Assembly: GCA_030374765.1 (NCBI GenBank)
Contig: JARGXX010000095.1
Span: 2,480,001-2,544,000, forward strand
Source: Agarophyton chilense
Lineage: Eukaryota; Rhodophyta; Florideophyceae; Gracilariales; Gracilariaceae
Reading direction: 5' to 3'
DNA length: 64,000 nucleotides
In this document: positions 11,363-62,960 of the stretch, one piece after another
Layout: every line of letters begins with the position of its first letter
Position numbering within the stretch: position 1 is the first letter of the stretch
Program-made: the position numbers and the translations under genes
The notes under the pieces: model-generated
The model's database searches: none
What the model saw: only the letters and a program-made list of their open reading frames with translations
Told to the model about the DNA's origin: nothing

Positions 11363-11750
11363 CTACAGCGCGCGTACGCTACGCTCGTCGCGTGCGGCCG
11401 TAATGGGCGCGCCGCCGCGCGCCAGTCCCTCGTCCACCTCGCCCTGCGTGTACAGCTCGCCCTCGCCGCAGAGCGCGAACGCGTCATCGTCGTCGCCATC
11501 GCCATCGTCGTCCTTGTCGTTGTCGACGACTACGCCCACGGCGGCCGCAGCGCCCACGCCGCCGTCGCCCGCGCTCACGTGCGACACGCAGTCGCCCAGC
11601 ACGTCGCAGCCGCGCTTGCGCGCGCCGTAGTGCAGCGCGTGTGCCAGCGCGTCAGGCGACGCGCCCAGGGCGCCGTACCCTACCAGAATGCGCTTCACCT
11701 CCTCCGACGCCGCGCTGCTCGGACTGGACGGTGCCCCATGTTGCTGCTCT

Positions 11751-11783
<33 letters not shown>

Positions 11784-13875: not shown

Positions 13876-13942
13876 ATGGCGACGACGACGACGACGGCGG
13901 CGGGCATGGCGACGACGACGGCGACGACGGCGGCGGGCATGG

Positions 13943-13974
<32 letters not shown>

Positions 13975-14010
13975 GCGGGCATGGCGACGACGACGGCGAC
14001 GACGGCGGCG
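13871..14010 (+). repeat. GCGACGACG-type minisatellite
   Basis: Blocks of (GACGACGGC)n separated by GGCGGGCATGGC, repeated four times with variable internal length. It encodes the Ala/Thr repeats at the start of the gene at 13876 and places an in-frame ATG in each block. Confidence 0.8.
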
Positions 14011-14919: not shown

Positions 14920-16217
14920 CCACCGCCGCAGCACACAACGTAAATGCGTCAACCGCGTGCACTGTGCACACCACGGTGACATGTACCAACGGTAGCACGC
15001 CACACCCAATTACATCCACCTCTCTCCAATGAGTATCACACTGCCTGCCAAGTACCCCGCCGCTGTACGCCATATTTCGCTACGTCCCCAGCCTCAATTC
15101 CTCCCATGTCTGTGTAAACGTCATATTCTTCTTCAAGTAGTTAGGGCACACAACGCGGGTGCTTACAACCCAAGGGGACACAAGTAGTAGATATGCTCTC
15201 GAGAGTACCAGCACAGAATATGGCAAACAAGACAAGTAAAAAAAAACGCAGAAACAAGGGGTGTAATAGGTAAAGATTGCGAATGATAAAATCATCAATA
15301 TATATATATATGTGGTACGCAAAGACAAAGGCATACAGATGTGATGCGATAAAATAAAACGTGTAATGGCCTACACCACCATGTTAAAACTGAATGTATA
15401 CATGGCAAACGTTCTCTAAAATAGTCTTTTTTTTTCTGACGCCTGCATACTAAAAACTAAGTTTGTAATATATTCGTACATTGTGAACTGTAAAAGCCTT
15501 GATACGGCATGCGCCACAACATAAGACTCTATCTTTGTGAAAAGCGCTTTTAACGCTTTTAAGTGCTTAAAACGCTTTAATATACTTTCAATCAGTTAAA
15601 CCCCCCTACAATGATACAAAAAGCCAAACAGAGCTTCAGATAGCTCTCAAAAGATAACTTTCGGCTGCGAAACGGTTTAACTTAAGTACAGACTATGATA
15701 AGAATTTGAATGGTGCAGAGATGGCTGAAAAGTTTGAAGAAAGGTGTACACGTGGTTAGGAATTTTGTTTTTTAATGACGCTGACTGCTTTTATCTTCGA
15801 ACCGGAACGATGATTTTTTTTTATTCGCTAGAATATATCTCAAAATTTGAAACGATTTGCAAGACTGAAAATTCCAGTACTTTAACACAATATCAAAAAA
15901 GCACTGAACGTTACTTAGTCTTTGACGAATGAAAAATGGTCGAAGAAGGTGAGCCCCGCCTTGTATCACGCATTTTTCTTATAATGAGATAGATATAAAA
16001 AAACACCTTCAAGAAGGTTTCATTTCATATCCTTCTCTCAAGCTGCGAGAAATATATCCACGATGGTAGGCGAAGCAGCAATGATCGCACATATAAAAAC
16101 AACCGGGTCACCAGTCATGCTTCTTAGTAAGATTAAGAAACACTTGACAGTGAAACTCAATCTTTCGGCAGAGATCACTTTTATACTTCGGTTCCCACGA
16201 CTCAAGCGCCATTGAGA
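14920..16217. other. AT-rich boundary region between gene island and retroelements
   Basis: Base composition falls abruptly after about 15.0 kb. No gene is supported. The region contains a TA dinucleotide run near 15297-15311 and a cluster of imperfect AAAACGCTTT/AAGCGCTTTT repeats at 15538-15582, which can pair with one another. The right part (up to 16217) should contain the 3' LTR of element D if it survives, but I could not match it to a second copy. Confidence 0.4.
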
Positions 16218-16242
16218 CCATTTTCTTCTTTTCTTCTCCTTC
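16218..16242 (-). other. putative polypurine tract of element D
   Basis: A continuous purine run on the minus strand (GGAAGGAGAAGAAAAGAAGA and on) lies where the polypurine primer of plus-strand synthesis is expected: between the internal region of minus-strand element D and its 3' LTR. The antisense frame starts just inside it, as in element B. Confidence 0.4.
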
Positions 16243-16295
16243 CACGAGCGTTCCGCCATTTCACTCTCCCAAACCTACGGTCAAGATCGTATTCA

Positions 16296-16781
16296 ATGGA
16301 CGAGGAGAACAATAAGGACAACTCCTTTACGCCAATAACCCCAAAGGTGTATTTTTCAGTATTCCGTTTCTTGGGCTATCGTTCTGTGACCTTACTACAG
16401 AGTGTTGCAACAAAAGAAGCGTCGGTTGCGCTAGTCGCGAACTCGGAAGTTGCTCCTGTGAGAGAATTACCACCTGTGGTGTGGCCATTTTATAACCAGC
16501 TTGTTGGTCGCCAACCTACTTTAGACGCCTCTATCCTTCGCCTGGCGCCATGGTTCTACGCGACTGGGGTGTTTAAAGATGCGCTGTTGAATATGTACAC
16601 TGATGGAAGCGGAATCTCTACGGGAGATATCCTGGTTCCTGCAAACAGTTCGTGGGATTGGAGGAACTGTGTGGCCTTTCCATTTCATACGATAAGTCGC
16701 CGCGGAAGCGAATCTATAGCTTCCGCACATGCGCCGTTGGTCCTCCATCTTCATCAATTGCACCGCCGAGCTTCTTTTTAA
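16296..16781 (+). pseudogene. Antisense accessory frame of element D (fragment)
   Basis: A 161-codon ATG-initiated frame on the strand opposite to the pol of element D. It is related to the 608-residue antisense protein of element B. Around 16509-16680 it shows L-D-x-S, then the block APWF, then DAL, then G-I-x-T-G-D-I and an S-W-D-W-R-N-C-V-A-F-P segment; B has L-D-N, APWF, DAL, G-I-P-E-H-A-I and D-D-W-A-S-H-I-A-L-P at equal spacing. The frame then breaks; weaker coding-like sequence continues to about 17.0 kb. The N-terminal part is Ser/Thr/Pro-containing and not conserved. Function unknown. It is probably truncated and inactive. Confidence 0.6.
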
Positions 16782-17152: not shown

Positions 17153-18145
17153 TCATTTCGTCAGGCCATGTATCGTGTATTCAATCTGGGTCGTCCATGG
17201 CTCGGTCACATAGGGTAAATCAAAGTATATCGTCATCATCGGCGGCCAGAGCTTCTTCATTCGTGGTAAATGTAAGTGCGCGTTCGCTTTCATGTTGTGT
17301 ATGCTCTTCTGGGAGATCACTTCGAAGTCATATTCGTGTGGGCTGATTCTCCGACAAATCAAGCGGCCTGAGAGTTCTGAGACAGTAAAAAGCCATTGTA
17401 GGGAGCAGTGATTTTTGTAAACAGAAAAATTATACACTGATGAGAAAAGAAAGGATGGTAGAGAAGGCCAATAAAAAGGCGTGATACTCTTTTTCTGACA
17501 CGGAGTACTTAACATCATAGAAATTCAGCGAAGAGGATCAATAACCGATAGGTTTCCGTTCTCCATCAGAATTTGTCTGAGAGAAGGAAATATCTACTTG
17601 ATAGGAACTGGCGTCTGTGTCCACTGCAACTGGTAGACCGGGGCTCAGCAACGATAAAAACGGTGGTGATGTGACGCCCACAATAATAGAAATAAAAGCT
17701 TCTCTCAGTGACGAACGTGAAGGGTTCTAAATTATGTGATTGACCTTTCCGAAAAATCGCGTTGAAGAGACTGCAATGTTCGCACAATTCGGTATAAACC
17801 ATAGGCAGACGTTGATTAATCCCAGAATAAAACTTCGTTCCTTCTGAGTCACAGGTCCTATTTCTTGGCGAAGCGATTTCACTCGAGCTTCCTCGATAAT
17901 CACCTGTCCAGAACAAATAATGCGACCCATATACTTGAAATTTTCCATAAAGAAGTTCCATTTCCCTAATTTAAGGGTTATTTCCGGTTCATGTAACGTG
18001 GTAAAAATGTCCCTGACGTTAATCAGGTGGTCCACCAGAATATCTGAGAAAACTATGGTATCGCCCAGATAGACGAGGCATTTATGTCACTTAAAACGGG
18101 CTGTTAGGATATCCAGAGCACTCTGAAAGGCAGCGCGGACATATG
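17153..18145 (-). pseudogene. Element D pol remnant: reverse transcriptase 3' part and RNase H
   Basis: Read on the minus strand, the segment next to element A gives V-R-A-A-F-Q, then SALDIL, then a TGA where the other copies have Trp, then CLVYLGDTIVFSD, where the catalytic YLDD has become YLGD. It continues with the thumb (HLINVRDIF, KYMGRII, TQKERSFILGLINVCLWFIPN). After frameshifts, the RNase H end is visible at about 17270-17430 (NHCSLQWL, SGRL, EYDFEV). Both the catalytic change and the frame breaks show that it is inactive. Confidence 0.7.
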
Positions 18146-21289: not shown

Positions 21290-24200
21290 TCCGTACGTTG
21301 GAAAGCAAGTACAGATTGAATGTGAACTTGAACGCCCATGGCGACGCTACGTTTGTCCGTCGAAACTAAAGAACTTCATTATGATAATGCAGAAAAGGAA
21401 CTATAAAGTTTACGCCGACATTGGGTCGGATAACCATTTATTAACCCACCACTTGACCGAACTTTATTCGGATCTCCGAACTATCAGCATCAGATATGGA
21501 ACATATCCGCTACGGTCCGCTGCAAGATATCCGGGATGCTAACAGGGATTCAATGCGAACACTTGGAACAGTGAGGCTGCTCGTTCGACTCGAACACTTT
21601 TTAGTGATGGTAAGGTTTATTGTCTGCAAATCGCTCGCTGCAACAGTTATTCTAGGATGTAAATACTGCGACAAGTTCATTGAATCAATCCCCTCCCCCG
21701 TGGACGACTAGTCACGCTTGTCGATGGCTCAACGGTGCCGATAGTGCGAAGATCACAACCGAGAGTCTACACAGCATCTCCACTTCCGCCCTCAATGAAA
21801 TACGAGTTGGCTCGTGGTCGTACATCACCGAGTATTTGCGTGTTAAATTTTTCAATAGTGAGGGTTCAATCCCAAATCTGGGTACGATTCATAACAGAAC
21901 GACACGGTCTCGTAACAATAGAGCCCCTTATCGCTACGTAGGAGCATCGACAATTACTTGCCGGGAATGGAATTGTCCAAATTGAACCGTATAAGCCTTT
22001 CCGGATACTTTTCAGTAACTTTACCGATAAGGACTATCGTTCACCGAAGAATCAGACTGTTGCCGCTTCTCTGCCGCACCCCACAATAGTATTCACGACT
22101 CATGTCTCTAGAGCAGAAGTGATAGGGCTTATGTAAGTCTCACAAGAATCAGAAAATGTTATGGAGGGTCCTAGAGAACAGTCCCAAACGACAGAAGAAT
22201 AAGAAAGACCCAGATCAGCTGGTAGAAGAGCTCACTATTTCTCACGCTCCCGCTAAATACCATGAAAGAATCATACAAATGCTGAAAAACTATGTCTCTA
22301 TGTGGAGTGGAAAACTAGAAGAGGTCTCCGCTACAAAACATCGAATCGATGTTATCCCGGGACCTCGTCTCGTTTCCCAGCCATCATACAGAGCAGGCCC
22401 AAGTACTCGTCAGATCAATAAAGAAAATGTAGCCAAGATGTCGGAAGGAAGAGTCGTCGAAGCAGCTCAATCTGCCTGGGCCTCACCAGTGGCGATAGTA
22501 CCGAAACCCGACGGTTCTTGAAGGTTTTCTTTTGAGTACAGAAAACTGAATCAAGTAAGAATATGAGATAAATACCCGCTTCCTCACATGGACTATTTAA
22601 TAGACAGCCTAGGCGAAGCAAGCGTGTTTACCACGCTTGTCGCCAGAACTGGTTAATGGAAGGTTCCTGTAGCCGAAAAAGACCAGGATAAGAGTACATT
22701 TGTATGCCAATCTAGATTGTACCGTTTCAAGCGGATGCCATTCAGACTAACCAATGACACCGCGACTTTCCAGTGCACTCTGGATATATTACTTTCCAAG
22801 TATGTATGGAAAACAAGTCTATTCTAATTGGATGACATCATAATCTTCTCACAAAATATAGAGAGTCATTTGAAACATGTGGAGAAAACCTCAAAGCGCT
22901 GCAGATAGCCGGTATAGCCTTGAAGATCAAGAAGTGTTAATGGTTCGCTAATACGGTGAAGTACTTGGGACAAATAATGAAGCCCGGTCAGCTTTCAATC
23001 CATGAAGCTCCAACGGCGGCTGTCCACGAAGCGCGACCGCCGTCTACACAGACCCAACTGCGATCCTCTCAGGGAGTATGTACCGTCTATCGACTTTTCA
23101 TACACCACTAATCGCACGTTTCTGTTCCAATGAACGCATTGTTGCCTGAAGAACTACATGTTCGGTTCAAATAATTCGTACCGGCCACACACGAAGCCTT
23201 CGAGACTCCGAAAACGAGTATTACTACGGTTCCAATCTTGGCAGTACCCAAACCCAACCTCTCCTACTCCGTGGAGACAGACTCCAGTGAGTATGAGGTA
23301 GGGAGTGGCCTGTTTCAGACACATTTGGACTATCAAAGAAAACCAATCGGTTACTGGTCAATACCGCTGAACATTGCAGAGAAGAACTACTCCGTTTTAG
23401 AAAAGGAATGCCTTGCAGTAGTTAGGGCTTTGATTCCTTTGTGACCCTACCTTCAGGGAGAGAATTTGACCGTCAATACGGATCAGTCATCCTTGCGATC
23501 GTTATTCTTTATAACTGACTTTCCAGTAAGATTAACACGTTGGCATCTGCGCCTATTAGAATTCAATTTAGAAGTTAAGTACAAGGAAGGATCAGCTACC
23601 ATCCAAGCAGCCGCTTTATCGCAATGGTACACCTTGGGAAAAACCCACGGAGAAATCGATTACGATATATATAATGTTTCTCAATGGGGATAAAGAACGA
23701 TGACGAGGAACTTTTATATAAAAAAAGAGGAAATTACTCTCAATTGGACCCTCTAATGGCCATCCGCGGATGGAAACCGCCTGATCAACTCGAGCGTATC
23801 TCGATCAATTAGCTCCTGGTTGAGCAACTGACAGAGAAGTTCTCGGCGGCGATACGCTCTCACCATAACGGGAGGGGAGAGGATCTACTCTTTTCGCTCA
23901 ATTCAAGAGGTATCTTTCTCAGTCATGTCGAGAAACATGATCAGATCGTGTTTTTGCAAGCTTTGAAGAGTCTTTTACTCTATTATGCTCAGTATGCAAA
24001 GCTACTGGACACCCAGGGGGAACGTAACGGTTTATGAATCTTAGGAGAGACTTTGATTGGCCAACAATGGCAATGGACTGCCTTTTCACCGTGAGAACAT
24101 TCCAAAAGTGTGCGATTAATCGCGTGAAACTCTATAAGAAGGGAGAGAAGATGGCCTTGTTTCCGACAAAGACTTCTTTACAGTTCGTTAGTATTGATAT

Positions 24201-26760
24201 ATTTGGAGAGCCAACTCGTTCCAAAAGAGGCTATCGCCATCTATTGGTAATTACGGATCGATTCTCCAAACTCGTACAGACTGTACCGTTGAAGAGCATA
24301 GCCACCTCAAAAATAGCTCAAGCTCTCATCAAACACTGGGTGTACGTGTACGGGCCGCCGGAGAATCTGGCATCAGATAATTTAGAGCAGTTTGTGGCTA
24401 GGTTCTTTCAGAATGTATGTATAATTATTGGTATAAAGAACGTATTTACAACGACCTACGACCCTCAATGTTATGGTCAAGTGAAACGCTACAATCGCAC
24501 GTTATAGCCGCTCTTCGGCACTACATTGCAGATCATCCGAAGAAAGGCGAAATGTACACCGACACACTCTGTTATGCGTACAACTCGCAGGTGCATACGT
24601 CTACAAAGACGAGTCCATTCGATCTCGTGATATCACGTAGCCCTCCGCCCTCACCGATGAGGTTAGACGAAGTTGACGAAGAGAAGCTGATACCTGCGAA
24701 GAACCATCTGAAATGGAGAGACGACCTGAAGACAAGAACAGATCAAGCGGATCGATAGTTAAGAAAAACGCAAGCTCTTTACAAACGTAACTCGGACGCC
24801 CATCGGCGAACACAAATGTCATATCTCCAGATAGAATGATACGCTTTTGTTTGCGTAGAACGACCTGAAAAGAAGGATGGACCGCGTCAAAAGTTGCTGC
24901 CGGTAGCATCCGGACCTTTCCAGATAATGGAAGTCACACACGACACTGTGGTTCTGACGACAGGAGAAGAACTCGAACATTTTTCGATAGATCTCGTTAA
25001 CACAGCACCATAACAGGACGTGGAAGGTCAGGAAGCTGGAAGAAGAAGCTCTGCAGTGCATCATGATCGAGAGCTACCCGTGGACTCACAGAATGGCCCG
25101 TTGCCAGTGGCACACAACGCTGAAAAGGTCCATGATCTCCCATCGAGCGCAGGAACGATATCGAATGACGGCATTCCTGTGAAGAAGCGATGAAAACGGT
25201 TCAGCCCTGTAAGCCGCCGGGCCCTGAAGGATCTTGCAGATGACATGTGGACGGGTCGAACTCAAGTGGACTCATGTAGATTACTAATTTATTTTAATTA
25301 GTTTAATAGATTAGCATTACAGTGCCAGGGAGATCCCAGCGCCTCGCCAGTACTATTTACTTGGCTCGAGTGACGCTTCTCCCTTGGAGTACGATAGGCA
25401 CCGTTAGGATACTAAATAACCTCCTTTGGTATATTAGTTCCACCCTTTGGTCTTCAAGCCATCGTTTCCGTAGCTCCAACCTGTAGGACTACGCAGTAAA
25501 CGCCAGCCATTGCACCAAGTACTCTGGGAATGCTACCGTCAAGGATTCAAACCTTAGGACCCGCTCTACCGCGATGTCACCGGTCGAGACCTGTACGCTG
25601 ACTTAACCCTTCATTGCGTTACAATTTCTCCGAAAAAATGAAACACGTTCCATAGTAAGAGCCAGGATTCTACAGTACATGAGAGCAAGAAAAATATTTT
25701 TAATTTCTGCTCGGTCATATTCGGTTCTTAAGCGACTAATAACTCGCTGTTACCCGTTCAGGGCGAACTGGCAAGCCGAATACTACTCGCTGAACCATCG
25801 CGTTTGTCAACCAACGGTAAAGAAGAAGGCAAAGAGAAGGATACAACTCAAGTAGTGGTGGATGAATCTTCGCCTGAACCTTCAGTAAAGAAGCCTTGTG
25901 TGGCTGAGAACCCTAAGAAGGGCCGAAGGCTTATGGAACGTGAAGAAAATGGGTAACCGTAGATCAACTAGTATGGAATCGGAAGCCCAAAGCGGCACTG
26001 CAGTGGCAGAACAGCGCCTTGAGCTTCCCGACGAGACTGCTCAGAAAAATTCTAAAACGGCAGGGAGTTCCCAAGTACCCTCTCAGGAGGTTCAAAGAAA
26101 TTGGTATTTGGTGCTTCGCCATCACTAAATGACCATGTATGAGATGATATGAAGGCAGTGGAAATGCGTGTATTTTTGATGATCAGCTTTGCTGCCATTT
26201 CGTGTCGGTGACAAGTTAACAATTCAATCTTTGAATTGTCAGACAGAGTGACACTGTATGAAGATGACAACTTGGATTATGAAGTCATCCTTAGCAGTAT
26301 GAAGTTCAGCAGACCTCCTGCTATGTAATAGGTCTATGGGAACTGGATTTACGCTTTTATGAAGGTTTTACGTGAATCAGGAATTAGTATATATAGAGAC
26401 AAGAAAGTAAACTATCGGTGTGTCTCACCAAGTGCCTTCAGAACAAAAAAAAATCGGTTATTAACGAAAGAAACTATAACGTTGAACCATCCAGCATGGA
26501 ACACTCTTGTTCTAGTACGATGCATTACAAACCGGTGGAACGGGGTTTTGAGCAATCCGCCGATGCGTTGAAAAATTCCAAAAAGTACGTCATGGAACGC
26601 ATTATAGATTACGGCGAGAGTGAAAAAACATACAAATTACTGTATCGCGTCTGTTGGTACGGTTTTTCTTGAAATAGTGGATACATAGGAGCCTATTACG
26701 CATATTTCGCGTTCGCAGGTCGTGCTTCATCATCGACACATTTGACATTCACTCCCTGTG
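21290..26760 (+). pseudogene. Element A pro-pol remnant with chromodomain
   Basis: A protease-like region at about 21290-21710 has lost its DTG but keeps V-x-L-G-C-K-Y-C-D-K-F. Reverse transcriptase runs from about 22156; a TAA precedes LDD in place of the Tyr of YLDD (about 22825). RNase H lies at about 23230-23690. The integrase core at 24034-24640 has ISID and ASDN, but the catalytic Glu is Lys (GQVKRYN). A GPY/F module follows at about 24885-25010 (ASGPFQIMEVTHDTVVL). A spacer of about 1.5 kb, partly open, precedes a chromodomain at about 26577-26675 (KYVMERIIDYGES, LLYRVCWYGFS). Every module carries stops or frameshifts. Confidence 0.7.
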
Positions 26761-27123
26761 GAGATTGATATGGCAGTGATGAGTTGCTTAAACGCACTAT
26801 CGCAGATTCACTGGTGACTCATTTTCATTTCAGGGGAAGTGAGGACCATGAAAGAAGAAGACGAAGATCAGAACACTCAGAGAAAAAAAAAGCATTGGGT
26901 TTACGAAGAAGAGGATTAAAGGAGGCAAAAGTAACAGTTTTACAAGGTCACCTCAAGGGTGTTGATGAGATCTAGAAACTATGGAGCCTAATAATAAGGT
27001 CACTCGCTGGTATGCTTATGCAGCATTGCACGAAGCTCCTCACGATCCTTCTGGAGCTGGGCTTCGGAAAAGCCTGCATCCGAGAGGAATTGCCTCAAAG
27101 AACCCAAGGAAGGATCCTCTGCA

Positions 27124-28800
27124 TCAGTCGGTTGCTGGGAGAACCCTATGATAATGCGTAGGTTGGGGAATTGAGCCCATCACGGGCTGAGAAGCCCTGA
27201 CAGGCGAAATAACCACCGCAGGCGCAGTAATGGATAGCTCTGGTTCATCCTCGAAATCGATATCCTCATCCCCACCCGGACCTTCTTCGTACTCTTGAAC
27301 CGCGAATTCGGAAGGTGTCGATTCATAGATATAAACCGTACGTTGATTTAAAGGGATTTCCCTGGGATTCGCATAAACATCGTGAGCCTTATCAGACGTG
27401 ATCAGCTGTCGATTCCAACGGTTGTACCATACACAGTCTCCAGCATTGTCTGTGCGACCCGGCGAGTGATCTTCTTGTCGCCCCCGTGTGCCTCTCGCTG
27501 ATTGCTTTAATGAAACTACATCCCAGTCGATACTGTCGATCAAGTCCATCAAGAATAGCAACTCGTCGTCCATAGCCCGTGAGCCCAACACCAGGGAGAG
27601 GTATAGCTGCCTCTCATTTTCTCCCGCAGTTGGCGAAATGTACCACACAAAAAAGGTGTCGTATGCATCCCAGAGGATATAGACTGCCATCTTGGCGATA
27701 AACTTGAAAAACACTACCATCCAGTTCCTCGAGAATGGCTCGTCGATTTAGGCAGAACAAATAAAGGTAATGGCCGCAGGGAAATCCACAGGACATCCAC
27801 GACGACTCTCGATCGCCGCCCGATGTTCTGGAATCGCTACATAATGCCCGACGCGAGCATTCCGCCTAACTCGATCGATTTTGATCATTTAATAAGGGAC
27901 CAAGTACCCCGAACGGGATCTCTTGCGTCGTTCCCAACGGATATCATCCCAATAGAAAATATCCCGCTTGTGGAGGAAACGTAAATCCGCTCGAAGCAAT
28001 TGCCGACGGGAGCAAAGTGCCGCGTGGCGCACAGAGCGTTTACCACGCCACTCTTCGACATCGACTTAATATAATACATTTATATGAGAGTATCCTACGC
28101 CGTGGGTACGAGCCATTCAGGTATCCAGGTTCAAATCCTCCGTAAGAAAGACCGTGCTGATAAAACGGCGCAGACGTTGGTAAATCAGCTTAGTGAACCA
28201 AGTTCGGGCTTCTTCCCAACTTTTATTTGTATATCGCGCAGCCGCGTTGACCGGCAGGGCACACTGAATCGGCCAATCGTGAATTTGAATCGCGACATGC
28301 GGCAGACCATCGGGAAGGTACCCGCTAAAGACGGACTGTCCGATCAACGCGTTCTCTCGAAGAGAAACTGAGTCGAACCAGGGAGCTTGAGCGAAAATAT
28401 CCCCATCGTAGAATGGGTCTCGTCCAACCCAGTCCGATGGATGCTAGTAACTGCGTTGAGCACGACGAGATGGATCTCGAATGAAACCGACAGGAGATAC
28501 GTAAGCCACTTTCGGCATGAGGCCAGAAGCAGAAGATTCCAACGGTAGAAAATGAAATCCGACGCGCGGAACCGGAAACAATCGGAACGCAGAAAGAAAA
28601 GCGGATTGCGAGTTGACTCCCCTGCTAGCCTAAGCACCCTTTGGTGGCGCATTCCCATTGTTGGAGGCGTAGGGAGTATTCGGGTTCATCGGTGAAAGAT
28701 TAGAAACAGACTGGTTTGAATCGTCTAAGAGCTTGTTGAACTTTAAGTAGGAAGTTGTTCGTGGGGACGGAGAAAATTCGGAAGACTGATGCATCATGCT
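27124..28800 (-). pseudogene. Antisense accessory frame of element A
   Basis: Minus-strand counterpart of the intact 608-residue antisense protein of element B, conserved over nearly its whole length but broken. The open C-terminal 198 codons (27124-27720) contain MAVYILWDAYDTFFVWYISPT, HSPGRTDNAGDCVWY, RQLITS and an acidic tail. The N-terminal half (28117-28660) shows RDPSRRAQRSY, APWF, GYLPDGLPHVAI and FTKLIYQRLRRFISTV. In between, two in-frame stops (near 27745 and 27890) and frameshifts interrupt it. The pattern of differences from B favours third codon positions, so the frame was once under selection. Confidence 0.75.
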
Positions 28801-39129: not shown

Positions 39130-39796
39130 TGTAGTATTCTACTATGTCGGGGAATCCGATGGGTTGGTTTTTCGCGAAGTTGCGGCTGGAACTCATAAGT
39201 GAGTGATGTCATCAAACTTGTGATATGAAACGGCAAACCGCGTAGGATGCCAGGAGGCAGGGTACAGTGTTGGGACACGTGGTATCACGAGTGAAGTGGC
39301 TTGCAACGGCGCATGTAGTGGCGATCCACGTGGCTGGTTTTACTACCCTTTGTAGCTAGACGTCCATTAGGGACCGTACCCATACAGTGGTTTGGCTAAG
39401 TGGCTGACCACTGGGTATTAATTATATATTTATTTGGGCACTCGCCCTGGCACACAGTATATAGTGCACCAGAGGTGAGCGCAGACTCCAAGTAAAGGTG
39501 ACAACATGGGCATCATGACTTTTCTGTTCCTCGCTTAGGATTCCTTAACCGGAGATCCGGACGAGCTATAATAGATAGTCAGCCCCCAACCACTTCACGA
39601 GCCGTCTCGTACCTACGTTCCATCAACGTTCTACAGTTGCACTGTTCACCCTCGCTGGCGAGTAGTGGCCTTACACCCCACTTCCAGCTCGCTGGTGTTG
39701 TAGCTCTGCCACCCCTTTTCCTTCGCCGCAAGCGACCCATCGGCAGTCCGAACGCTGTCGCAGGTGTCTGCTCTCTCCGTTGGAGCGGATACTACA
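39130..39796 (+). repeat. 5' LTR of element B
   Basis: A 667-bp LTR beginning TGTAGTATTC and ending CGGATACTACA, with terminal TGTAGTAT/ATACTACA inverted repeats. I count about 22-24 differences from the 3' LTR. It contains a TTAATTATATATTTATTTGG AT-rich stretch near 39420 that could hold the transcription start signals. Confidence 0.9.
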
Positions 39797-39798
39797 AG

Positions 39799-39816
39799 TG
39801 GTCTCCCGACTTAGAA
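39799..39816 (+). other. primer binding site of element B
   Basis: TGGTCTCCCGACTTAGAA begins two bases after the 5' LTR. The TGG start fits pairing with the CCA end of a tRNA. Near-identical sites follow the LTR in elements A, C and D. I could not match it to a specific tRNA. Confidence 0.6.
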
Positions 39817-40011
39817 CCACTGTGGTCAGCTGCACTGAACAATTCGTTCCTGGAACGTGGAATCGATATCGATACTTGGAAGAAGTGGAATCACTACAGT
39901 TATTGTTTATCAAACCCCCTCCGGCAATTGCGGAATTCATAGTGGTTGAACACGTGGTCGAGAAGTCGAAGACACCATTTGGATCGCACCTGGACTCAGG
40001 TTTGGTCTAGG

Positions 40012-42162
40012 ATGCCAAAGACCGGAAGCCAGTCGAGTACTGGTCGCCCCGGTCCTGCGGGACCACCCCCGAAACCGAGGCTCGCGTCATCTGTTGAAGC
40101 CGGAGAGCGGCTGTATCGTCAAGCGATGTCGCGCTCACGCTCGGTGAATGATGAACGAGATCTCTCGGATGTACCGGCCCCTGTGGCAGCGGCAGTCACG
40201 CCCACAACAGAAGCGGAAGTTGACCCTTAGGTCGTCGGACCTCAAGAAGAGGATGATTTGCGCAGGGAAGTGCGTCGTCTCAAGTCTGAGTCAAGCGCTT
40301 CGCGTGTGCGCATGGTTGCGTTGGAATCGCAGATTGCTGCTCTTATCGCTGATGTCGAACAATTACGCAGTGCGCATCAAGCGCTCGTTCGTCAAGACGA
40401 TGGGAAGCAGGTCTCTGCATCAGTGAAAACACTACGTGAGGATTTGAACCATCTACTGGAGAGGTACGGGAATACGCCCGATACGCTACCCAACTTAACC
40501 GTGGATGTAGAGGAAGTTCTCACTCGAGTTAACCCTCGTTTAGAACGCCTGGAGGCGGCATTTCATGCGCAGACTGCTGCTAAACCAGTCGTGCTGAAAG
40601 AGGATGGAGCTTCTTTGAAGGAAGCTCGTTCGAAGAAGTCGAAGTCACGACAAAAGAAGCGGAAGTCCGCACGTGATTCGAGTGATGAATCGTCAAGTAC
40701 GGAGGGTTTCAGTTCCAGTACTGATGATTCTGACGATTCAGATACGTCAGATGACAACGACAGTGATGATGGTCATCGAAGATTCCGATCTCGGAAGAAG
40801 AACACTTCTTCGTGGTTAATGAGAAAAAAGGCTCACCTTATGGAGGATTGAAGGTGCTCCCGTGCACGAATCCGCTTTATCGGAAGGTCCTGAATTACAG
40901 GTACTACCGTCTGAAAGTGAAGAGCAAGAAGCGCTCAGGACGCGAAACCGCGAAGGTGAAGGATCATATCAAACGATTGAAGATCGGCCTTAATGATTTA
41001 ACATTTGATGGGAAAACCCCCATTCTCGTTATCGAGTTTCTCACTCCATTCGTTGCCGAAGCAGACGCTCTAGAGATGAGTGAACCACAGGCATTTGTGT
41101 CTTTACCACACTTCCTGAAGGGTTTTGCTTTAGAGAAATATCGTTCCGTATGCGGATCATTGACAGCCGATGAAGGCCGCGTTACCTCATGGCCAGAGGC
41201 AGTGCAGTATTTGCTGCGCAGTTACGCGACATCAAACGCGATACGTCAGGCGATCCTGGACCTAAGGGATGTGACCCAAAAGCCTGAGGAGGGCGAATCT
41301 GAGTACAGCTTAAGGCTTAACAAAGCTTCAGTCCGCTGTGGAAACGTCCACTCGACGGAGGACAAGATTACCTTGTACATCGACGGGCTGGACCCGAGCA
41401 TCAAGTCGTTGGTAGCTCGATATCGAGAGAAGCATGAAAGAGTCTCCATCTTGGAGTTAGTTCAGTTTGCGAAAGCTGAAGGAGACGCGGCCAGAGCGCG
41501 TGGTAGCCCCCGTCGTTCAGTGGCTTTTGTAACCTCAATGGGTAAGAGAAGATCTCCGCCAGAGTTAATCAGCGCAGCAAACTGCTACACCTGGAATCTC
41601 CAGTGCACTCACGAGATTCGTCGTTGGCACCCAAAGGGAGTCACTGGCATGGGAAGGCGGTCCATTTATGGAATATACGGACTCTTTTGTACCTACAGTG
41701 GATCTCCCACACTCGGAGTCTCAGGGCGAGGAAGTCCTAATGGCTATGGAGGGCCGTCGCCCTATGTACCGTCCCTACACGGTGCCACCACAAGGAGGTT
41801 TTAAGAACGGGAAACCCGGATGGGTGGATACTCGCACGGCATACCGTTCACAACCTATGTTGACCAACCTTCGTGACGGTTTGATATGTTATTCATGTTA
41901 TGGAAAACACCATTTGAGTGCAGAATGCACGCTTCCTGCAAAGGACCTGAGTCGTATCATGACGAATTACGAAGCACTCTCAGAAGAGGAAAAGAGCCGC
42001 GTACCGGCGGGCATGTATTGGAAAGCCAAAAGTTGTTTTTCTCAGACACCAATGCGCCGGACGTACAAGCCGGTTGCTCCGAATGCTGAATTGTTACAAC
42101 CCGGAACCCCGGTAGGAAGAGGCGCCTTTGAGGCGAAGCAGCTGGTGCAACCGGAAGACTAA
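40012..42162 (+). pseudogene. Element B gag, broken
   Basis: ATG 40012 opens a 72-codon leader (SQSSTG, RLYRQAMSRSRS, RDLSDVPAPV) that ends at TAG 40228. The same frame then continues with a long coiled coil (40258 on), a Lys-rich stretch and an Asp/Ser tract. A frameshift near 40840 leads to the capsid-like region (DHIKRLKIGLNDLTFDG, FVAEADALEMSEPQAFVSL, SWPEAVQYLLRSYAT, about 40960-41500), and another near 41700 leads to the nucleocapsid. The latter has one perfect zinc knuckle, CYSCYGKHHLSAEC (C-x2-C-x4-H-x4-C), at 41887-41928. The final frame ends at TAA 42162. Gag packages the element RNA in the cytosol; this copy cannot make a full-length protein without frameshifting. Confidence 0.75.
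41887..41928 (+). other. gag zinc knuckle of element B
   Basis: Encodes C-YS-C-YGKH-H-LSAE-C, a perfect CCHC retroviral-type zinc knuckle for RNA binding. The element C copy at 56870-56911 (C-WF-C-LSPH-H-FATQ-C) keeps the same spacing; in element A the motif is interrupted by a stop. Confidence 0.9.
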
Positions 42163-42203
42163 GTGAGGGAGCCCCTAGGGGGTCAGCACTAGTCGATACC
42201 GTA

Positions 42204-45200
42204 GTGCTGCCCAGGGAGAGTTCGCCTCCCTGCTCCCGCGCTTGGAAGCCCAAGCTTCTCTTGAGGCCTCCCAAATTTCCGCCGTACGGAATCAATCCGC
42301 CGGACGGAAAGCGAGTACAGTTTGACTGTGAGTTACATCGTCCTTGGAGACGTTATACTTGTCCGTCAAAACGGAAAGTTACCTCATGGTAGTGTCTAAA
42401 AGAAACTACAAGGTCTATGCCGACATCAGCTCTGACAGGAATCTGTTACCCCCTCAATTGACTATCCTGGACACAGGTGCTGGTCCGAACTTTATACGGG
42501 AATCGGAGCTCGCTCCTGCTCACTTAGAACGTATTCGATGCGGTCCTTTACCGGACATCCGGGATGCCAACAAAAATGCTGTGAAGACACTGGGAACAGT
42601 TCGACTCGTGGTGCGTTTGGGACGCTTTGTAGTTCTAGTCGACCTCATCGTCTGTAAGACGTTAGCTGCACCAGTGGTACTGGGATGTGATTATTGCGAC
42701 AAGTTTGTCGAAGCCATTCGCCCGCGAAGAAAACTAGTGGAACTAGATGATGGATCAATGGTACCAATTGTTCGAAACCGAATGCGTCGTTGCCCCGAAG
42801 CACCTCGACTTCCACCATCTATGGAATACGGGAAATCCCGAGGACGTGTCTCGCCGAGGATTCGAGTAGCGAAGAGTGCCATGCTGAAGGCGCAAACCAA
42901 AACTTGGGTTCAAGTAAGAATAGAAAGGCACGGACTCGTGTAAATTCAACCGAATACTCGGATGTACGACTCCCGTGGATTTCTAGTCGCTAACGGCATT
43001 GTTCAGGTTGATCCTGGTAGCCCCTTTTGGATACTAGTGAGTAACTTCACCGATAACGATTATCAGATACCGAAGAATCAGGTTGTTGCAACAGCTTTGC
43101 CTTATCCTGCAGTGGTGGTCCCTACTCATATTTCTACTGCAGAAGTATTGGGATTAACCCATGTCGGTGACACAGACGAAGAACTGCAAACTCCGTCTGG
43201 AGATCAATTGCAAACGGCAAAGGATCTAGAGAGCCTGGTCGATGAGCTAGACTTAGCACATGTGTCGGAACACAACAGAACGAAGATCAGGTCTATGCTG
43301 AAGAAGTATACATCCATGTGGAGTGGAAAACTAGGAAAGATCTCCGCTACGGAACACCACATTGATTTGGTCCCAGGGTCACGACCCATCTCCCAACCAC
43401 CCTACAGAGCGGGACCGCGAACTCGCCAAATCGAGGAGGAGAATGTCAGAAAAATGCTGGAAGAAGGAGTAATCGAAGCAGCTCAATCTTCTTGGGCCTC
43501 ACCAGTGGTTCTGGTTCCGAAACCTGATGGTTCTTTACGATTTTGTATCGATTATCGAAAACTGAACGCAGTTACAGTTCGGGATACATACCCGTTGCCT
43601 CGAATGGACAAATGTATTGACAGCTTAGGAGAAGCGAACGTGTTCACCACGTTGGACGCCAACTCTGGCTATTGGCAGGTGCCTGTAGCGGAAGAAGACC
43701 AAGATAAAACCGCATTTGCGTGTCACGCCAGTCTCTACCGTTTCAGAAGGATGCGCTTTGGTTTAACGAATGCACCGGCTACTTTCCAGCGAACTCTGGA
43801 CATCTTGCTCTCAAGATACAAATGGAAGACTTGTTTAGTCTATTTGGACGATGTGATCATCTTTTCCCAGGATGTGGAAAGCCATTTACGGCATGTCGAG
43901 GAGATCCTCAAAGCACTATAGAGCGCAGGTATCACCTTGAAATTCAAGAAATGCGAATGATTCGCTGGCACCGTCCGATACTTAGGACATGTGATCAAGC
44001 CGGGACAGCTTGCCATTTAAGAGGCACAAACAGCGGCTCTCCGCGAAGTACAACCTCCGTCGACACAGAAGCAATTGCGTTCTTTCCTCGGCTTGTGCAA
44101 CGTCTACCGACGATTCGTGCCGCGATACTCGCATATGGCGGAACCGCTCAACGCAAAGCTGCGTAAAGGACAACAAGTACAGCTGGAACAATTCAGACAA
44201 GCTGAAGTGGAAGCGTTCGACACGCTTAAGTCAAAGATTATTACAGCCCCAGTCTTGGCGTTGCCCATCCCGAACCTGCCATACTCAGTGGATACCGACT
44301 CTAGCGAGTACCAAGTAGGGTGTGCCCTTTTTCAAACACACCCTGATGGTGAACGCAAACCCATTGGTTACTGGTCAAGATCGCTGAACGCAGCTGAGAA
44401 GAAGAATTCAGTTTCAGAAAAGGAATGCCTTGCAGTCGTTTGGGCTCTAACCACATTGAGACCGTACCTCCAAAGAGAACGTTTTACCGTCAACACGGAT
44501 CATTCGTCTCTACGATGGTTACTGTCCATTACAGACCCGTCTGGTCGTCTCACTCGATGGCGCTTACGCCTTTCTGAATTTGATTTCGAAGTGAAGTATG
44601 AGAAGGGATGGGCCAATGTCCAAGCTGACGCGCTATCGCGACTCAAAACACTGGGCGAAACCCAAGCCGAAATCGATGAAGAGATACCTTGCTTCTACAT
44701 GGAGACCCATTAAACATCTTTTGAAGAAGAGGAACAAGAGACCCTTGATGATTATTCGGATGCAGACCCTTTCCTTGCATTGGCAGACACTGACCCTTCA
44801 GTTCAACTCGATCGAATCTCGTGCACTGAGCTCCTCAATGAGCAACACGCCGATACGTTTTGTGCGTCGATACGCTCTCGTCTTAACGAGGGGGAGGAGC
44901 TCCCCTTTTCACTCGATTCACGAGGAATACTGTTAAGAAATGTCGAAAAGCATGATCAAATTGTGATTCCACACGTCTTGAAGAGTCGAGTACTCCATCT
45001 GGCACACTACAGCAGGCTGTCTGGTCATCCAGGAGGAACGAAGTTGTTCATGACTCTAAGAAGATATTTTTACTGGCCTACTTTGGCAATGGACTGCCAT
45101 GCTACAGTGAGGTTGTGTACAACCTGTGTGAATAATCGTCTGAAGCTCTACAGGAAGCGGAAACCGATGATGTTATTCCAGGCGAAAGCGCCTTTACAAT

Positions 45201-45679
45201 ACGTCAGTATCGACATCCTAGGGGAATTGATTCGCTCAAGGCGAGGTTATCGCTACGTATTGGTAATCACCGACCGCTTCTTGAAGCTACTGCGGACTGT
45301 GCCGCTGAAGCGGATAACCGCAGCCGTAATCGCACAGGCTTTTATCAAACACTGGGTATTTATATACGGACCACCAGAAGTTCTGTTATCAGATAATGGG
45401 AAGCAATTCGTTGCGAAGTTCTTTCAGGATGTTTGCCGCATTATGGGCATTCGAGACGTGTTTACCACGAACTATCATCCGCAATGCAACGGTCAGGTGG
45501 AGCGTTTCAACTGCACGCTGATAGCAGCATTACGACACTACATCGCGGACCACCCGAAAGAATGGGACATGTTTACAGATACTCTGTGCTACGCGTACAA
45601 TACGCAAGTGCATACCTCTACAAAGACGGCACCGTTCGACCTCGTGCTCTCACGTAACCCTCCGGGAATTGAGAAGTAG
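42204..45679 (+). pseudogene. Element B protease-reverse transcriptase-RNase H-integrase, with stop codons
   Basis: After an initial frameshift near 42380, protease, RT, RNase H and integrase share one reading frame. Protease: LDTGAGPNFI (about 42467), then VVLGCDYCDKF. RT: KPDGSLRFCIDYRKLNAV, TTLDANSGYWQVP, FGLTNAPATFQ and the catalytic YLDD (about 43843). RNase H: VDTDSSEYQVGCALFQT, NTDHSSLRWLL and QADALSRL. Integrase: a His/Cys zinc region, then catalytic Asp (SIDILGE), Asp (LSDNGKQF) and Glu (GQVERFN), all present. Lesions: TAA 42941, TAG 43919, TGA 43958, TAA 44018 and TAA 44711. The frame ends soon after the integrase core, without the GPY/F module found in elements A and C. It is not autonomous as it stands. 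Confidence 0.85.
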
Positions 45680-46105
45680 CAAGAAGTACGCTTCTATGGA
45701 ACCTGGAAAACAGGATAGCTCTTTATCTGAGAAAGGTTCTCAAGGAATGAGTACACTGCCCTTGAGGGCAGAACGACAGTTAGTCGACGAGCGAACGCTT
45801 ATCGACGCTGAGACTGCTAACACAGAGACGCTTGGGTCAGCCCTAAGGCATTTCAAACCTGTTAACTGGAGTCTCGCACCAACAGCGAAAGCATTGGGAA
45901 ACGCCCAGGAATATGTTATGGATCGCATATGCGAACATTGCGAGCATGAAGATACCAGAGAATGACTGTATCGAGTCCGGTGGGACGGTTTTTCTCCGGA
46001 AGCGGATACGTGGGAACCTATAGCTCATATCCCCGTTCGCAACTCGTGCGATATCATCGACGCATGCGATTACCACTCCCCAGAGAGATCGACTCCTCGA
46101 TAGTC
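45669..46105 (+). pseudogene. Element B integrase tail with chromodomain
   Basis: In a different frame from the integrase, this segment encodes a spacer and then a chromodomain: EYVMDRICEHCEHEDTRE, a TGA at 45963, [18 protein letters not shown] and IAHIPVRN. The aromatic/acidic pattern (Y-V-x2-I, L-Y-R-V-R-W-x-G-F, T-W-E-P) is that of chromodomains, which guide integration of chromoviruses to marked chromatin. Related domains lie at about 26577 (A) and 61150 (C). Confidence 0.75.
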
Positions 46106-46397
46106 GGGCTCCTGGGCACATCCCATTTCTAAGTATAAAGGTAGTAAAAACTCGAAAGGCGAGAAGAAAACCAGAAGTCATGTGGAAGAAACGTGAAAAG
46201 ACGCAAGCACAGGACATTTACTGAGTATCACCTAGGACAAACTCGAGAAGCGAGAAGAAGGATTGAAGAACTCGAGAAGCGAGAAGAGATGAAGACTAGA
46301 AGATAAGAAGGGAACGTGAAGACACGAAGTCACCGGAGTTTTATTGGTATCAAGATACCACCGCAAGGGTATTGACTAGGAGTCGTTTCTAGGATCA

Positions 46398-48224
46398 TCA
46401 AAGAGACGTGCGAGCACGCAGGTTCGCAAGAGGCTGTGCGGGATCACCCTCAACTTGGTCCACGGGAAAGCTCGCATCTAAGAGGAACTGCCTCAGTGGA
46501 TCCAAGCCTGGATCTTCGACCGGCACTGCACCCGGTTGTTGGGTAAACCCATGACAGTACTCTTGAGCAACTCCCGCCGCTGCGGATTCATCGACGGAAG
46601 TCGCTACCTCTGCCAGCTCTGGCTCGTCCTCATAACCGAGTTCAGCCTCAGCTCCCGGCGCTTCCTCATACGGTTCCTTTCCGTTCTCGGATGGAGTAGC
46701 ATCGTACACGTATCCAGTAAGCTGGTTCGGTGGCATGTCACGCGGGTTCTCTCGAAGAAAGCGAGCCTGCTCGGAGGTGATCAACTGGCGCGTCGAGGGG
46801 TCGTACCAAACGAAATCTCCAGCACTTGCTGTTCGTCCAGGAGAATGGTCGTAGTGTCTTGCACGGGCTCCGCGAGCGGATTGATCAGCCGACACTCCAG
46901 ACCAATCGACATTGTCGATCAAATCTACAAGATGGAGGAAGTCGGCATGGTTCGCACGGGATCTTAGGACAAGGGAAAGATCGAGTTCTCTTGCATACTT
47001 TCGCACTGTGGGCGACATGTACCAAACTCTAAAGGTATCATAAGCATCCCACAGGAGGAAGACGGCCATGTTGGCGACAAACTCCGTATAAACCACCGTC
47101 CAATATCCCGAGAACGGGTCGTTAACCAACGCGGACCGGATGTAGGAGATCGCCGCTAGGAGCTCCACAGGGCAACCACGAGGACTCTCGATCGCCGCCC
47201 AATGCTCCGGAATACCGATGTAGCGCCCGAAGCGCGCGTTCCACCGGATGCGGTCAATCTCGATCATTTGATACGGCACCAAATAGCCCAAACGTGATCG
47301 AGTACGACGTTCCCAACGGGGATAATCCCAATAGGGAATGTCACGCTTTCGAAGGAAGCGGAACTCCGCACGGAGAAGAGGTTGCTGAAAGCCGAGAGCT
47401 GCATCACGCACACCGCGCGCACTGCGCCAACCGCTAACATCGACTTCAACGAGTGTCTCGATATACGAGTAACCTTCACCGTCGGTACGGGCTTTCCAGG
47501 TATCTAGTTCCCAGTCCGGTGGGAGGAGAACGGTACTGATGAATCGGTGAAGACGCTGGTAAATCAGCTTGGTAAACCGCGGACGGGCTTCGGAAAAGGT
47601 TTCCGTTGAATATCGCGCACTCGCGTTGTCTGGCAAAGCAATATGGCTCGCCCAGTCGTCGCGATAAATCGCGTGTTCCGGAATACCGTCAGGGAAGTAC
47701 CCACCGTGTACATACTGCCGTGCCAACGCGTCATCGCGGATAGCAACTGGATGAAACCAGGGCGCTTGCGCGAAAAGTTCAACGTTGTCGAGAGGATCTC
47801 GTCCATAGAAATCCGCAGGGTGCGGGTAGCTCCGCTGAGCACGACGAGAAGGAGCTCGAATCACACCCGCAGAGGCGACGTAAGCCGCGTTCGGCATTGG
47901 AGCCACGGTTGGCTGAGGTAACGGTACCGACCGGAATCCGGTGTACGGTGTGGGGAACGAACGGTATGGACCGAGTTGAGCAGTAGGCTGCGACGCGTAA
48001 CCAGCAGTGTTGGACGGAGCCCCAGAAGGCACATCCTCAGAGGAGGGCTGAAACGGGTTGGACCCGGCGTTCGGATCCATCGCGAGAGATCGAGCTGAAG
48101 AGCGGTGAGGAACAGAATGCTGTTGAGAACTGTAAGAGTTGGTCGTGCGGCGAGGAATTCGTGATGACGATGAGTACCCGGAACACCGGTCCGACTGCGT
48201 GTAAACGCTTCTTGTGTCCCCCAT
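46398..48224 (-). CDS. Antisense accessory protein of element B, intact, function unknown
   Basis: A complete 608-codon frame, ATG 48224 to TGA 46398, on the strand opposite to gag-pol, between chromodomain and 3' LTR. The first ~120 residues are Ser/Pro/Gln-rich and likely disordered. A folded part runs from about 121 to 480, with blocks RAPSRRAQRSY, APWF (154-157), FTKLIYQRLHRFIST (217-231), GYLVPYQM, ESPRGCPVELLAAI, MAVFLLWDAYDTFRVWYMSP (386-405) and HSPGRT. The C-terminus is acidic and ends Arg-rich. There is no signal peptide, no clear membrane segment and no catalytic motif I recognise. Related frames at the same place and orientation occur in elements A, C and D. The ATG is only 14 bp from the polypurine tract, so transcription presumably starts inside the 3' LTR. 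It could be a capsid-like, regulatory or host-interacting protein; I cannot decide. Confidence 0.8.
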   Translation of the reverse strand: MGDTRSVYTQSDRCSGYSSSSRIPRRTTNSYSSQQHSVPHRSSARSLAMDPNAGSNPFQPSSEDVPSGAPSNTAGYASQPTAQLGPYRSFPTPYTGFRSVPLPQPTVAPMPNAAYVASAGVIRAPSRRAQRSYPHPADFYGRDPLDNVELFAQAPWFHPVAIRDDALARQYVHGGYFPDGIPEHAIYRDDWASHIALPDNASARYSTETFSEARPRFTKLIYQRLHRFISTVLLPPDWELDTWKARTDGEGYSYIETLVEVDVSGWRSARGVRDAALGFQQPLLRAEFRFLRKRDIPYWDYPRWERRTRSRLGYLVPYQMIEIDRIRWNARFGRYIGIPEHWAAIESPRGCPVELLAAISYIRSALVNDPFSGYWTVVYTEFVANMAVFLLWDAYDTFRVWYMSPTVRKYARELDLSLVLRSRANHADFLHLVDLIDNVDWSGVSADQSARGARARHYDHSPGRTASAGDFVWYDPSTRQLITSEQARFLRENPRDMPPNQLTGYVYDATPSENGKEPYEEAPGAEAELGYEDEPELAEVATSVDESAAAGVAQEYCHGFTQQPGAVPVEDPGLDPLRQFLLDASFPVDQVEGDPAQPLANLRARTSL

Positions 48225-48238
48225 GGTTCGCGTTTAAC

Positions 48239-48246
48239 GAGGGGGG
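48239..48246 (+). other. polypurine tract of element B
   Basis: GAGGGGGG directly before the 3' LTR, in the same TTAACGAGGGGG context as in element A. Confidence 0.65.
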
Positions 48247-48248
48247 TA

Positions 48249-48912
48249 AGTATTATTCTACTATGTCGGGGAATCCGATGGATTGGTTTTTCGCGAAGTC
48301 GCGGTTGGAACTCATAAGTGAGTGATGTCATCAAACTTGTGATATGAAACGGCACACCGCGTAGGATGGCAGGAGGCAGGGTACAGTGTTGGGACACGTG
48401 GTATCACGAGTGGAGTGGCTTGCAATGGCGCATGTAGTGGCGATCCACGTGGCTGGTTTTACTACCCTTTGTAGCTAGACGTCCATTAGGGACCATACCC
48501 ATACAGTGGTTGGGCTAAGTGGCTGACCACTGGGTATTAATTATATATTATTTGGGTACTCACCCTGGCACACAGTATATAGTGTACCAGAGGTGCGCCG
48601 TCTCCAAGTAAAGGAGAAAACATGGGCATCATGACTTTTCTGTTCCTCGCTTAGGATTCCTCAACCGGAGATCCGGACGAGCTATAATAGATAGTCAGCC
48701 CCCAACCACTTCACGAGCCGTCTCGTACCTACGTTCCATCAACGTTTTACTGTTGCACTGTTCACCCTCGCTGGCCAGTAGTGGCCTTACACCCCACTTC
48801 CAGCTCGCTGGTGTTGTAGATCTACCACCCCTTTTCCTTCGCCGCAAGCGACCCATCGGCAGTCCGAACGCTGTCGCAGGTGTCTGCTCTCTCCGTTAGA
48901 GCGGATACTACA
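48249..48912 (+). repeat. 3' LTR of element B
   Basis: Collinear with the 5' LTR from TATTCTACTATGTCGGGG to CGGATACTACA. The first bases differ (TAAGTATTATTC instead of TGTAGTATTC), so the terminal TG has been lost by mutation. It ends at 48912. Confidence 0.85.
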
Positions 48913-61579: not shown

Positions 61580-62960
61580 ACCAATAGGTAGCAAAATTCT
61601 GATGAGTCGGAGGCAGCGCCGGAAAACCGGAAGAGGTACCCGAAGGGAAAGAAAGATTAGGGAAAGGCAAAGAGCCAGGTATAAGCATCGTCACATTATC
61701 AACACGGTAATTTCTGGTGGGACCCAACAAAGAACAAACAGTGGTGCCCATGAGGAGATCTCTCGAGATGTCCGCTTGTTCCACAATGGTGCTGAGATCT
61801 GCGACGTGATGCATGACCGCATGGAACATCTCGGCCTGTAACCGATTACGGAAGGTAACCGCCTGGTGGATAGCGAAGATAGAGTCCACGTGACGAGGGA
61901 TGAGCTACTCCAAGAGCGAAAGAGCTTCTTGGAAGGAGCACGGACCGTAACGGGTGAGACAAGAGACGCAAACGCGCTGGATCCTCATGAGCGCACTACT
62001 AATGACAGGAGCTGTGAAAGGCTCACCATCGCCAGCTGTGGAACGATCTACCATGAGGGATTGCGCAGGTCCAGCAGAAGGAGCAGGAACAGAACGGTTA
62101 ACACGGTTAGAAGAAAGAGCAGCGGAACCAAAAGGTGCGGCGGTAATGGAGATGTGGGAAATCCCTTCCAGAGTCTCCATTTTATGGGTAAAGGGCTGAG
62201 GGGACCCACAAAAGGGATCCTCGCCTGGTGATACCAGGTTCGCCTCACTGGGAATGGCTAGCTTCTTGAAGTTCCATACTTCTCAACATTGGCCATCCTT
62301 CCACGGATGCGACAAAGACACCTCCAGGTAAGTCTTCAGCTGAGCATCGGTGTATTCTGTACCAAAGCGAATCTCATCCACACCAATCTGGCGGATGAGG
62401 TCCACTGTAGTGCCAGAAAGCCGGAAGATACGACCAACAGTTGAGAAGTTATAGTTGGTCATCTGAGGATCGGGGCAACGGCTGCCCCAGATAGTACCGT
62501 CGCGGGAAGCTTTAACAGTTTTAAAGGCAACGAAAACGGCCCACTTTGCGAGAGCTACGGACCAAATGGTATGATAGTACCCCTCGTGTAGGACAACGCT
62601 CGGAGCGGAGACACCAAGAAGATGATCGGGATCTTCCTCTCTTGTGAGACACGCCTCCGGCGGAGGAGACGCGTCCCAGCGGAGCACAGAAACAGAGCCA
62701 CTCTGGAAAGGCACGACGGCATCGGGTGTAAGACCGAGGCCAATCCGGCGGGATATACCTAGAGTGTTTAGGTGAGCACGGCACAGTCCGGGGTGTGACC
62801 AATCCTAGGCGGAGCGGTACCACGGCGATTGTCGGAAAAGGAGCGAGGAAACACTCGTATGAGGTGGACGAGCGGGGTGAGTGGGTCGGCCACTCACGAG
62901 AGCCAAAAAGGAGAACAAGAGGAAAACGGGGGCGAAACCCTATACAGGGGCGAGAATACG
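61467..62960 (-). pseudogene. Antisense accessory frame of element C
   Basis: On the minus strand, one reading frame stays open from about 62714 to 61467 except for two stops (62283 and about 61905). The upstream part contains HTIWSVALAKWAVFVAFKTVK, which resembles the Trp/Ala/Val/Phe-rich VANMAVFLLWDAYDTF block of the element B protein. Downstream lie a Ser/Ala/Pro stretch and a helix-like segment (QAVTFRNRLQAEMFHAVMHH). Position and orientation equal those of the antisense frames of A, B and D. Sequence similarity is low, so homology is likely but not certain. Confidence 0.5.

Follow-up and report, generated by a model that had tools for sequence, protein, structure and literature searches.

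Evidence for purifying selection on an antisense gene carried by chromoviruses of the red alga Agarophyton chilense

Structure of element B and its antisense frame

The window, i.e., the complete stretch of 64,000 nucleotides analyzed here (contig JARGXX010000095.1, positions 2,480,001 to 2,544,000), harbors at about 39130-48912 the Ty3/gypsy element B, whose gag-pol genes are located on the plus strand. Its 5' long terminal repeat (LTR; 39130..39796, plus strand) begins with TGTAG and ends with CTACA, and positions 39131-39796 are 96% identical to the 3' LTR (48250..48912, plus strand). The gag region is split over two frames (40231..41804, plus strand; PF03732 Retrotrans_gag, E 6.7e-8 in 40770-41804), and protease, reverse transcriptase (RT), RNase H, and integrase share a single frame (42332..45679, plus strand; PF00078, PF17917, PF17921, and PF00665) that is interrupted by in-frame stops in the window copy; the protease match is weak and under the cut-off (PF13975, E 0.012). 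The portion of the chromodomain 3' of an in-frame stop (45966..46100, plus strand) scores 26.0 bits against PF00385 (cut-off 25.1), and a putative polypurine tract, read from the sequence and recognized by its position, adjoins the 3' LTR (48239..48246, plus strand). Element B is a chromovirus because its gag-pol domains and chromodomain lie between its LTRs.

Opposite gag-pol, between the chromodomain and the 3' LTR, an open frame of 608 codons from its ATG (611 from stop to stop) occupies 46398..48224 of the minus strand, and its start sits just inside the polypurine tract. An earlier note, made from the sequence alone, had described an intact 608-codon antisense frame between the integrase and the 3' LTR. 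This description was confirmed, since the frame is open and exceeds the longest frame found on either strand in 500 dinucleotide-preserving shuffles of 46105-48249 (298 codons). The spacer between chromodomain and antisense gene (46105-46397) contains a short repeat (units like CTCGAGAAGCGAGAAG), the number of which varies among five inspected copies of element B.

Carriers in the window and element families in the genome

All four Ty3/gypsy elements of the window had been proposed in the earlier note to carry the gene, which held for A, B, and D but not for C. Profile matches identify the antisense gene in broken pieces in element A (27003..28629, minus strand; E 2.6e-82, 5.1e-42, 4.7e-26, 4.4e-18, 4.4e-11, and 2.6e-4), the integrase of which lies at 24028-24504 (plus strand; PF00665). 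They also identify an N-terminal part of the gene in the truncated element D (16137..16781, plus strand; E 7.8e-12, and 1.5e-7 with a wider profile), whose RT remnant (17727-18083, minus strand) matches the RT of family E with 59% over 103 residues. Element C was rejected as a fourth carrier: no minus-strand frame of at least 30 codons in 61467-62960 matches either family profile at E up to 10. The 5 kb to the right of the window likewise contain no member of the antisense family.

A segment in or beside element C (62583-62804) has at least 150 copies in the genome, and its positions 62587-62677 match sequence that, in family E, lies beyond the antisense gene and probably belongs to the LTR of E. 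From these matches, the segment probably represents a stray LTR fragment located within or next to element C. Elsewhere in the window, 634-2034 and 2564-4075 contain ordinary host-like genes, for a triose-phosphate-transporter family protein and a Core-2/I-branching enzyme. At 9000-15000, the G+C content rises to 67-73% with sharp borders, versus about 40-50% on either side. In this block, long open frames of up to 935 codons overlap on both strands, the six scanned giving only subthreshold Pfam matches; its origin may be foreign, or it may represent a G+C-rich repeat.

The antisense gene of element B has at least 72 copies in its own genome, all 72 scored copies being nearly full-length. Fifteen of the 72 are stop-free, four of them identical within the gene, the stop counts being biased low because B copies were picked from the best matches and E copies were picked as stop-free. 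With the database protein P0003 as the query, at least 85 matches were obtained in the genome; matches at 100% identity cover P0003 over its full length and P0006 over residues 1-363, both proteins being labeled A. chilense (Gracilariales), in agreement with the origin of the window. Thirty B copies were compared, including that of the window (L009-L038; L001-L008 were excluded, seven of these eight being duplicates of copies in the set). The LTR, the antisense gene, and the integrase plus chromodomain align over more than 70% of columns in 435 of 435 pairs, whereas the outer flanks align in none of the 435, and the antisense gene lies opposite the integrase in all 30. Judged by these alignments, the 30 B copies go back to insertions of a single element, with the antisense gene as part of it.

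In the genome, the antisense gene is found in four families (A, B, E, and F), and in every one of them it is stop-free over 608-666 codons in one copy or more; e.g., the frame of L039, an A copy elsewhere in the genome, stays open for 639 codons. Family E was found with the piece of D as the query and showed at least 36 stop-free frames of 600 codons or more among 150 rows scored (counted by eye, F rows included), 20 of them with exactly 652 codons. Family F is represented by 67 nearly full-length copies among the matches listed, of which 65 have one or more stops; the frame opens close to a start codon in two of the three F copies read but not in the third.

RT, RNase H, and integrase are present in the Ty3/gypsy order in B, E, and F, and the chromodomain at the integrase C terminus exceeds the Pfam cut-off in B and F and falls slightly short of it in E (23.9 versus 25.1 bits). 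Over a 9-kb stretch, the antisense gene of the E copy L049 lies opposite the strand that encodes RT, RNase H, integrase, and chromodomain, and the F copy L050 has the same layout. Antisense orientation relative to pol thus holds for B, for E and F (as seen in L049 and L050), and for A and D of the window; for B, the position between pol and the 3' LTR was established as well.

Candidate signals for antisense expression

A TATATAA in the 3' LTR of element B (48541..48547, minus strand), which recurs among the B copies, is a possible antisense promoter: 28 of the 30 B copies have TATATAA or TATAAA in antisense orientation within the 3' LTR, 315-376 nt before the ATG, with a distance of 323 nt in 19 of the 28. 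A possible poly(A) signal (AATAAA; 46340..46345, minus strand), located 55 nt beyond the antisense stop, recurs as well; in 30 of 30 B copies, an AATAAA follows the stop no later than window position 46250, and the distance is 55 nt in all five inspected. The E copy L049 has TATATA 312 nt before the frame and AATAAA or ATTAAA 86 nt after it. Neither signal turned up in the F copy L050, which shows no TATA-like box upstream and no AATAAA or ATTAAA in the 374 nt downstream.

Of the 30 B copies, 27 retain the antisense ATG and 29 a further ATG at codon 49. An A at -3 together with a G at +4 represents a favored start context, and both are present at the first ATG in at least 24 of the 30 copies. 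Since residues 1-48 are the least conserved part of the protein between A and B (pN/pS of 0.74 over 39 codons), translation may in fact begin at codon 49. In the window copy, the stretch from the TATA-like box to the first ATG of the gene contains six other ATGs; therefore, translation from a simple leader would be poor in the absence of splicing. These six ATGs favor a leader that is spliced, or else they count against exactly such a start.

Homologues and phylogeny of the antisense protein

The expectation that homologues exist outside this locus was borne out by the four families in the genome and by at least 20 homologous database proteins (the best ca. 8,000 candidates being scored per protein search), seven from A. 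chilense, one from Gracilariopsis chorda (hypothetical protein BWQ96_08668), and 12 others. No relatives were found in viral contigs (queries P0009 and P0008) or in prokaryote genome contigs (query P0014). In a tree of 18 sequences (P0002-P0005, P0007, P0010, and P0021 omitted), A and B group with the G. chorda protein and three other database proteins (support of 1.00), and D, E, and F form a common group (1.00) with P0020 as its nearest neighbor (0.93); P0009 and P0014-P0019 stand apart. The antisense proteins of the four families are 28-55% identical. RT identities (E-F 69%, B-E 55%, and B-F 56%) follow an order that agrees with the tree of the antisense protein. Judged by this grouping, the antisense family predates the split of the element families in this genome.

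Selection between and within element families

The dN/dS of the window B gene versus four A copies is 0.20, 0.17, 0.17, and 0.22 (345-593 codons), and all A-B pairs fall between 0.165 and 0.237 (L043, which contains a stop, was omitted), values that are rough because dS is 1.5-2.0 and thus near saturation. The raw differences have the same tendency: window B and L039 differ by 0.31, 0.26, and 0.58 at codon positions 1, 2, and 3, respectively, and window B differs from the A copies by 0.53-0.58 at third positions and by 0.20-0.31 at positions 1 and 2. The A-B pN/pS is 0.32-0.35 in a core that was delimited with the help of alignments (residues about 116-500; 46725..47879, minus strand) and 0.47-0.74 elsewhere in the protein. 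Between E and F, the antisense gene has a dN of 0.47, a dS of 1.62, and a dN/dS of about 0.29, compared with a dN of 0.24, a dS of 1.79, and a dN/dS of 0.13 for RT-RNase H of the same two elements (556 codons). The remaining pairs (B-E 0.39, B-F 0.30, A-E 0.25, and A-F undefined) have silent changes too saturated to be of use. Since the between-family dN/dS is low (A-B and E-F), the antisense gene is under clear purifying selection between families, about half as strict as that on pol.

Within families, selection was sought in the B and E copies, and nothing beyond near-neutral drift was found. The tree of the B copies is star-like, and the fraction of the neutral ratio is 0.84 on terminal and 1.05 on internal branches (73 classified changes on the latter); the integrase of the same copies is also near neutral (1.05 and 1.33, respectively). 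In nine E copies, singletons give a corresponding value of 0.87, and shared variants, which comprise 10 silent and 13 nonsilent changes, one of 0.54. Such near-neutral change within a family is what should be expected of copies that are dead after insertion. In the antisense gene of L009-L038, C>T and G>A changes are, per site, about twice as frequent as the reverse transitions, as if methylated cytosines were decaying.

Motifs and predicted structure of the protein

The profile and structure searches for relatives proposed in the earlier note yielded nothing significant in Pfam, the PDB, or Foldseek, and the antisense protein is likewise without significant match in NCBIfam and PHROGs. Its core contains stretches that occur as close variants in most members (ERRxRSRxGYLVPYQ, PPxLTYxGS, SGxWxVxxTEW, LLWxxYD, and SPGRxxxxGDFxxYDPW), and the basic runs in the six proteins examined for them are all short (RKR, RRR, and RRRR among them) and do not establish a nuclear signal. 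Weak Pfam matches at the C terminus concern E3_binding (best E 0.029, in 6 of 13 members) and Ish1 (E 0.092, in 1 of 13); the C-terminal helix-turn-helix that they suggested was dropped when a profile search of the PDB gave no support.

AlphaFold2 predicted the window protein with a mean pLDDT of only 38 (13 sequences) and P0009 with a mean of 58, a pTM of 0.50, and 207 of 572 residues at a pLDDT of 70 or more (21 sequences). Helices predominate in the P0009 model, of which only some parts are reliable; the model has no match in the PDB (Foldseek), none better than E 4.4 among viral structures, and none with VIA among the seven chains compared. The usual hydropathy threshold for a membrane span is 1.6, and the 19-residue maximum is 1.19-1.59 in eight of nine proteins. 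The ninth, the F copy L050, reaches 1.73 in its tail, in a stretch from residue 640 onwards that lies beyond the family-matching part.

Discussion

The comparison of the four element families shows that the antisense frame codes for a protein, is kept by purifying selection between families, and travels with the element. On balance, we consider it fairly probable that it represents an accessory gene of a red algal chromovirus lineage, expressed from an antisense mRNA and probably nuclear or regulatory in its role. As judged from the sequence signals, this mRNA would begin in the 3' LTR and end at the gene's own poly(A) signal; alternatively, a promoter located upstream might drive it, as is described for Grande in a review (PMC7264820). 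With less weight, and by analogy to Grande gene23 and Retand ORF4, the protein may act in the nucleus or on the transcription or silencing of the element and thereby aid its replication.

The main rival to a nuclear or regulatory role is an anti-silencing factor, i.e., a protein that counters host methylation or small-RNA silencing with an effect comparable to that of VANC of VANDAL transposons. An element-borne gene under selection fits such an arms race, and the roughly twofold predominance of C>T and G>A over the reverse transitions would be expected if host cytosine methylation targets the B copies. However, this bias was measured in B copies alone and may be genome-wide, and the antisense protein has no significant similarity to known silencing or chromatin proteins; we regard this explanation as unlikely. 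Even less probable is a structural or particle protein, e.g., a second capsid-like or envelope-like part, to which the large, in the model mostly helical conserved core, the hydrophobic end of the F copy L050, and the place adjoining the 3' LTR, known from env-like genes in the review text available (PMC7264820), would correspond. The hydrophobic end is outside the family-matching part, though, and the other eight proteins stay below the threshold for a membrane span; moreover, neither Foldseek nor VIA gave a significant match to PDB or viral structures, and an env-like reading requires the sense orientation, whereas the gene is antisense to pol.

A host gene captured as a passenger would be compatible with the mostly unknown origin of the antisense extra genes of plants, as stated in the accessible portion of PMC7264820. 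Nevertheless, we consider this very improbable: four families share the gene at 28-55% identity in the same place and orientation, on account of which it must be old and kept, and the named database matches are annotated only as "unnamed protein product" or "hypothetical protein." Near-neutral change within families could finally be taken as a sign of a chance open frame or of an antisense RNA without protein function, but this is contradicted by the shuffles, the between-family dN/dS, and the homologous database proteins (at least 20), and we give it hardly any credence. The accessory gene with a probable nuclear or regulatory role remains the explanation that we prefer.

Extra open reading frames (ORFs) are, as Steinbauerova et al. 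are said to have reported, rare in chromoviruses and located only 5' in grasses. Those in antisense orientation 3' of pol are an accepted kind according to the available parts of two sources (PMC7264820 and PMC11963269), and antisense genes in this position are already known, i.e., from Retand and Grande of plants and Boty of fungi. In the part of a plant survey that was available (PMC6317226), most non-chromoviruses of the OTA group have extra ORFs, Ty3/gypsy extra ORFs of any position and strand amount to 314 groups, and the authors asked whether extra ORFs of either strand function at all, given their heterogeneity. Retand has an antisense ORF in the same place but belongs to a non-chromovirus plant lineage, and its Transposase_28 domain (PF04195) is absent from the Pfam matches that two sets of the red algal protein (13 and 16 members) gave with E values of up to 10.

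In maize, gene23 of Grande is antisense and in the same place, with its own upstream promoter and a nuclear product (PMC7264820, accessible part); Grande belongs to another lineage (Tat), and the likeness concerns its description. A likeness in description also holds for the antisense extra gene brtn of the fungal LTR element Boty/BcGypsy1 of Botrytis (PMC7264820 and PMC8365987); Boty, which is among the carriers of antisense genes in the accessible review text (PMC7264820), is not named in PMC3248453. HBZ of the human retrovirus HTLV-1 is an antisense provirus gene with an antisense promoter in the 3' LTR and a nuclear protein (PMC11963269 and PMC7264820, parts available), and it is likened only in its way of working.

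The view expressed in the earlier note, that no gene of this kind with this protein was known from a chromovirus, stands within the literature examined, but the precedents extend beyond the plant Tat lineage to the fungal Boty. No report of an antisense gene in a red algal element was found in the literature searched, which is no proof since subscription papers were mostly outside its scope. The protein family, the red algal chromovirus host, and the evidence for selection are new here.

The function of the antisense genes of LTR retrotransposons is an open problem, on which one protein kept across four chromovirus families has a direct bearing. Because of this conservation, the dN/dS evidence, the many stop-free copies, and the homologues elsewhere, the question becomes testable in one organism. 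In a wider and more tentative interpretation, which we put forward as a possibility rather than as our expectation, a red algal chromovirus lineage would possess a second, antisense-expressed gene with a new fold that is needed for replication or for escaping silencing and is older than the split of Agarophyton and Gracilariopsis. Such a gene would represent a layer of accessory genes as in complex retroviruses, albeit one that evolved independently in a chromovirus.
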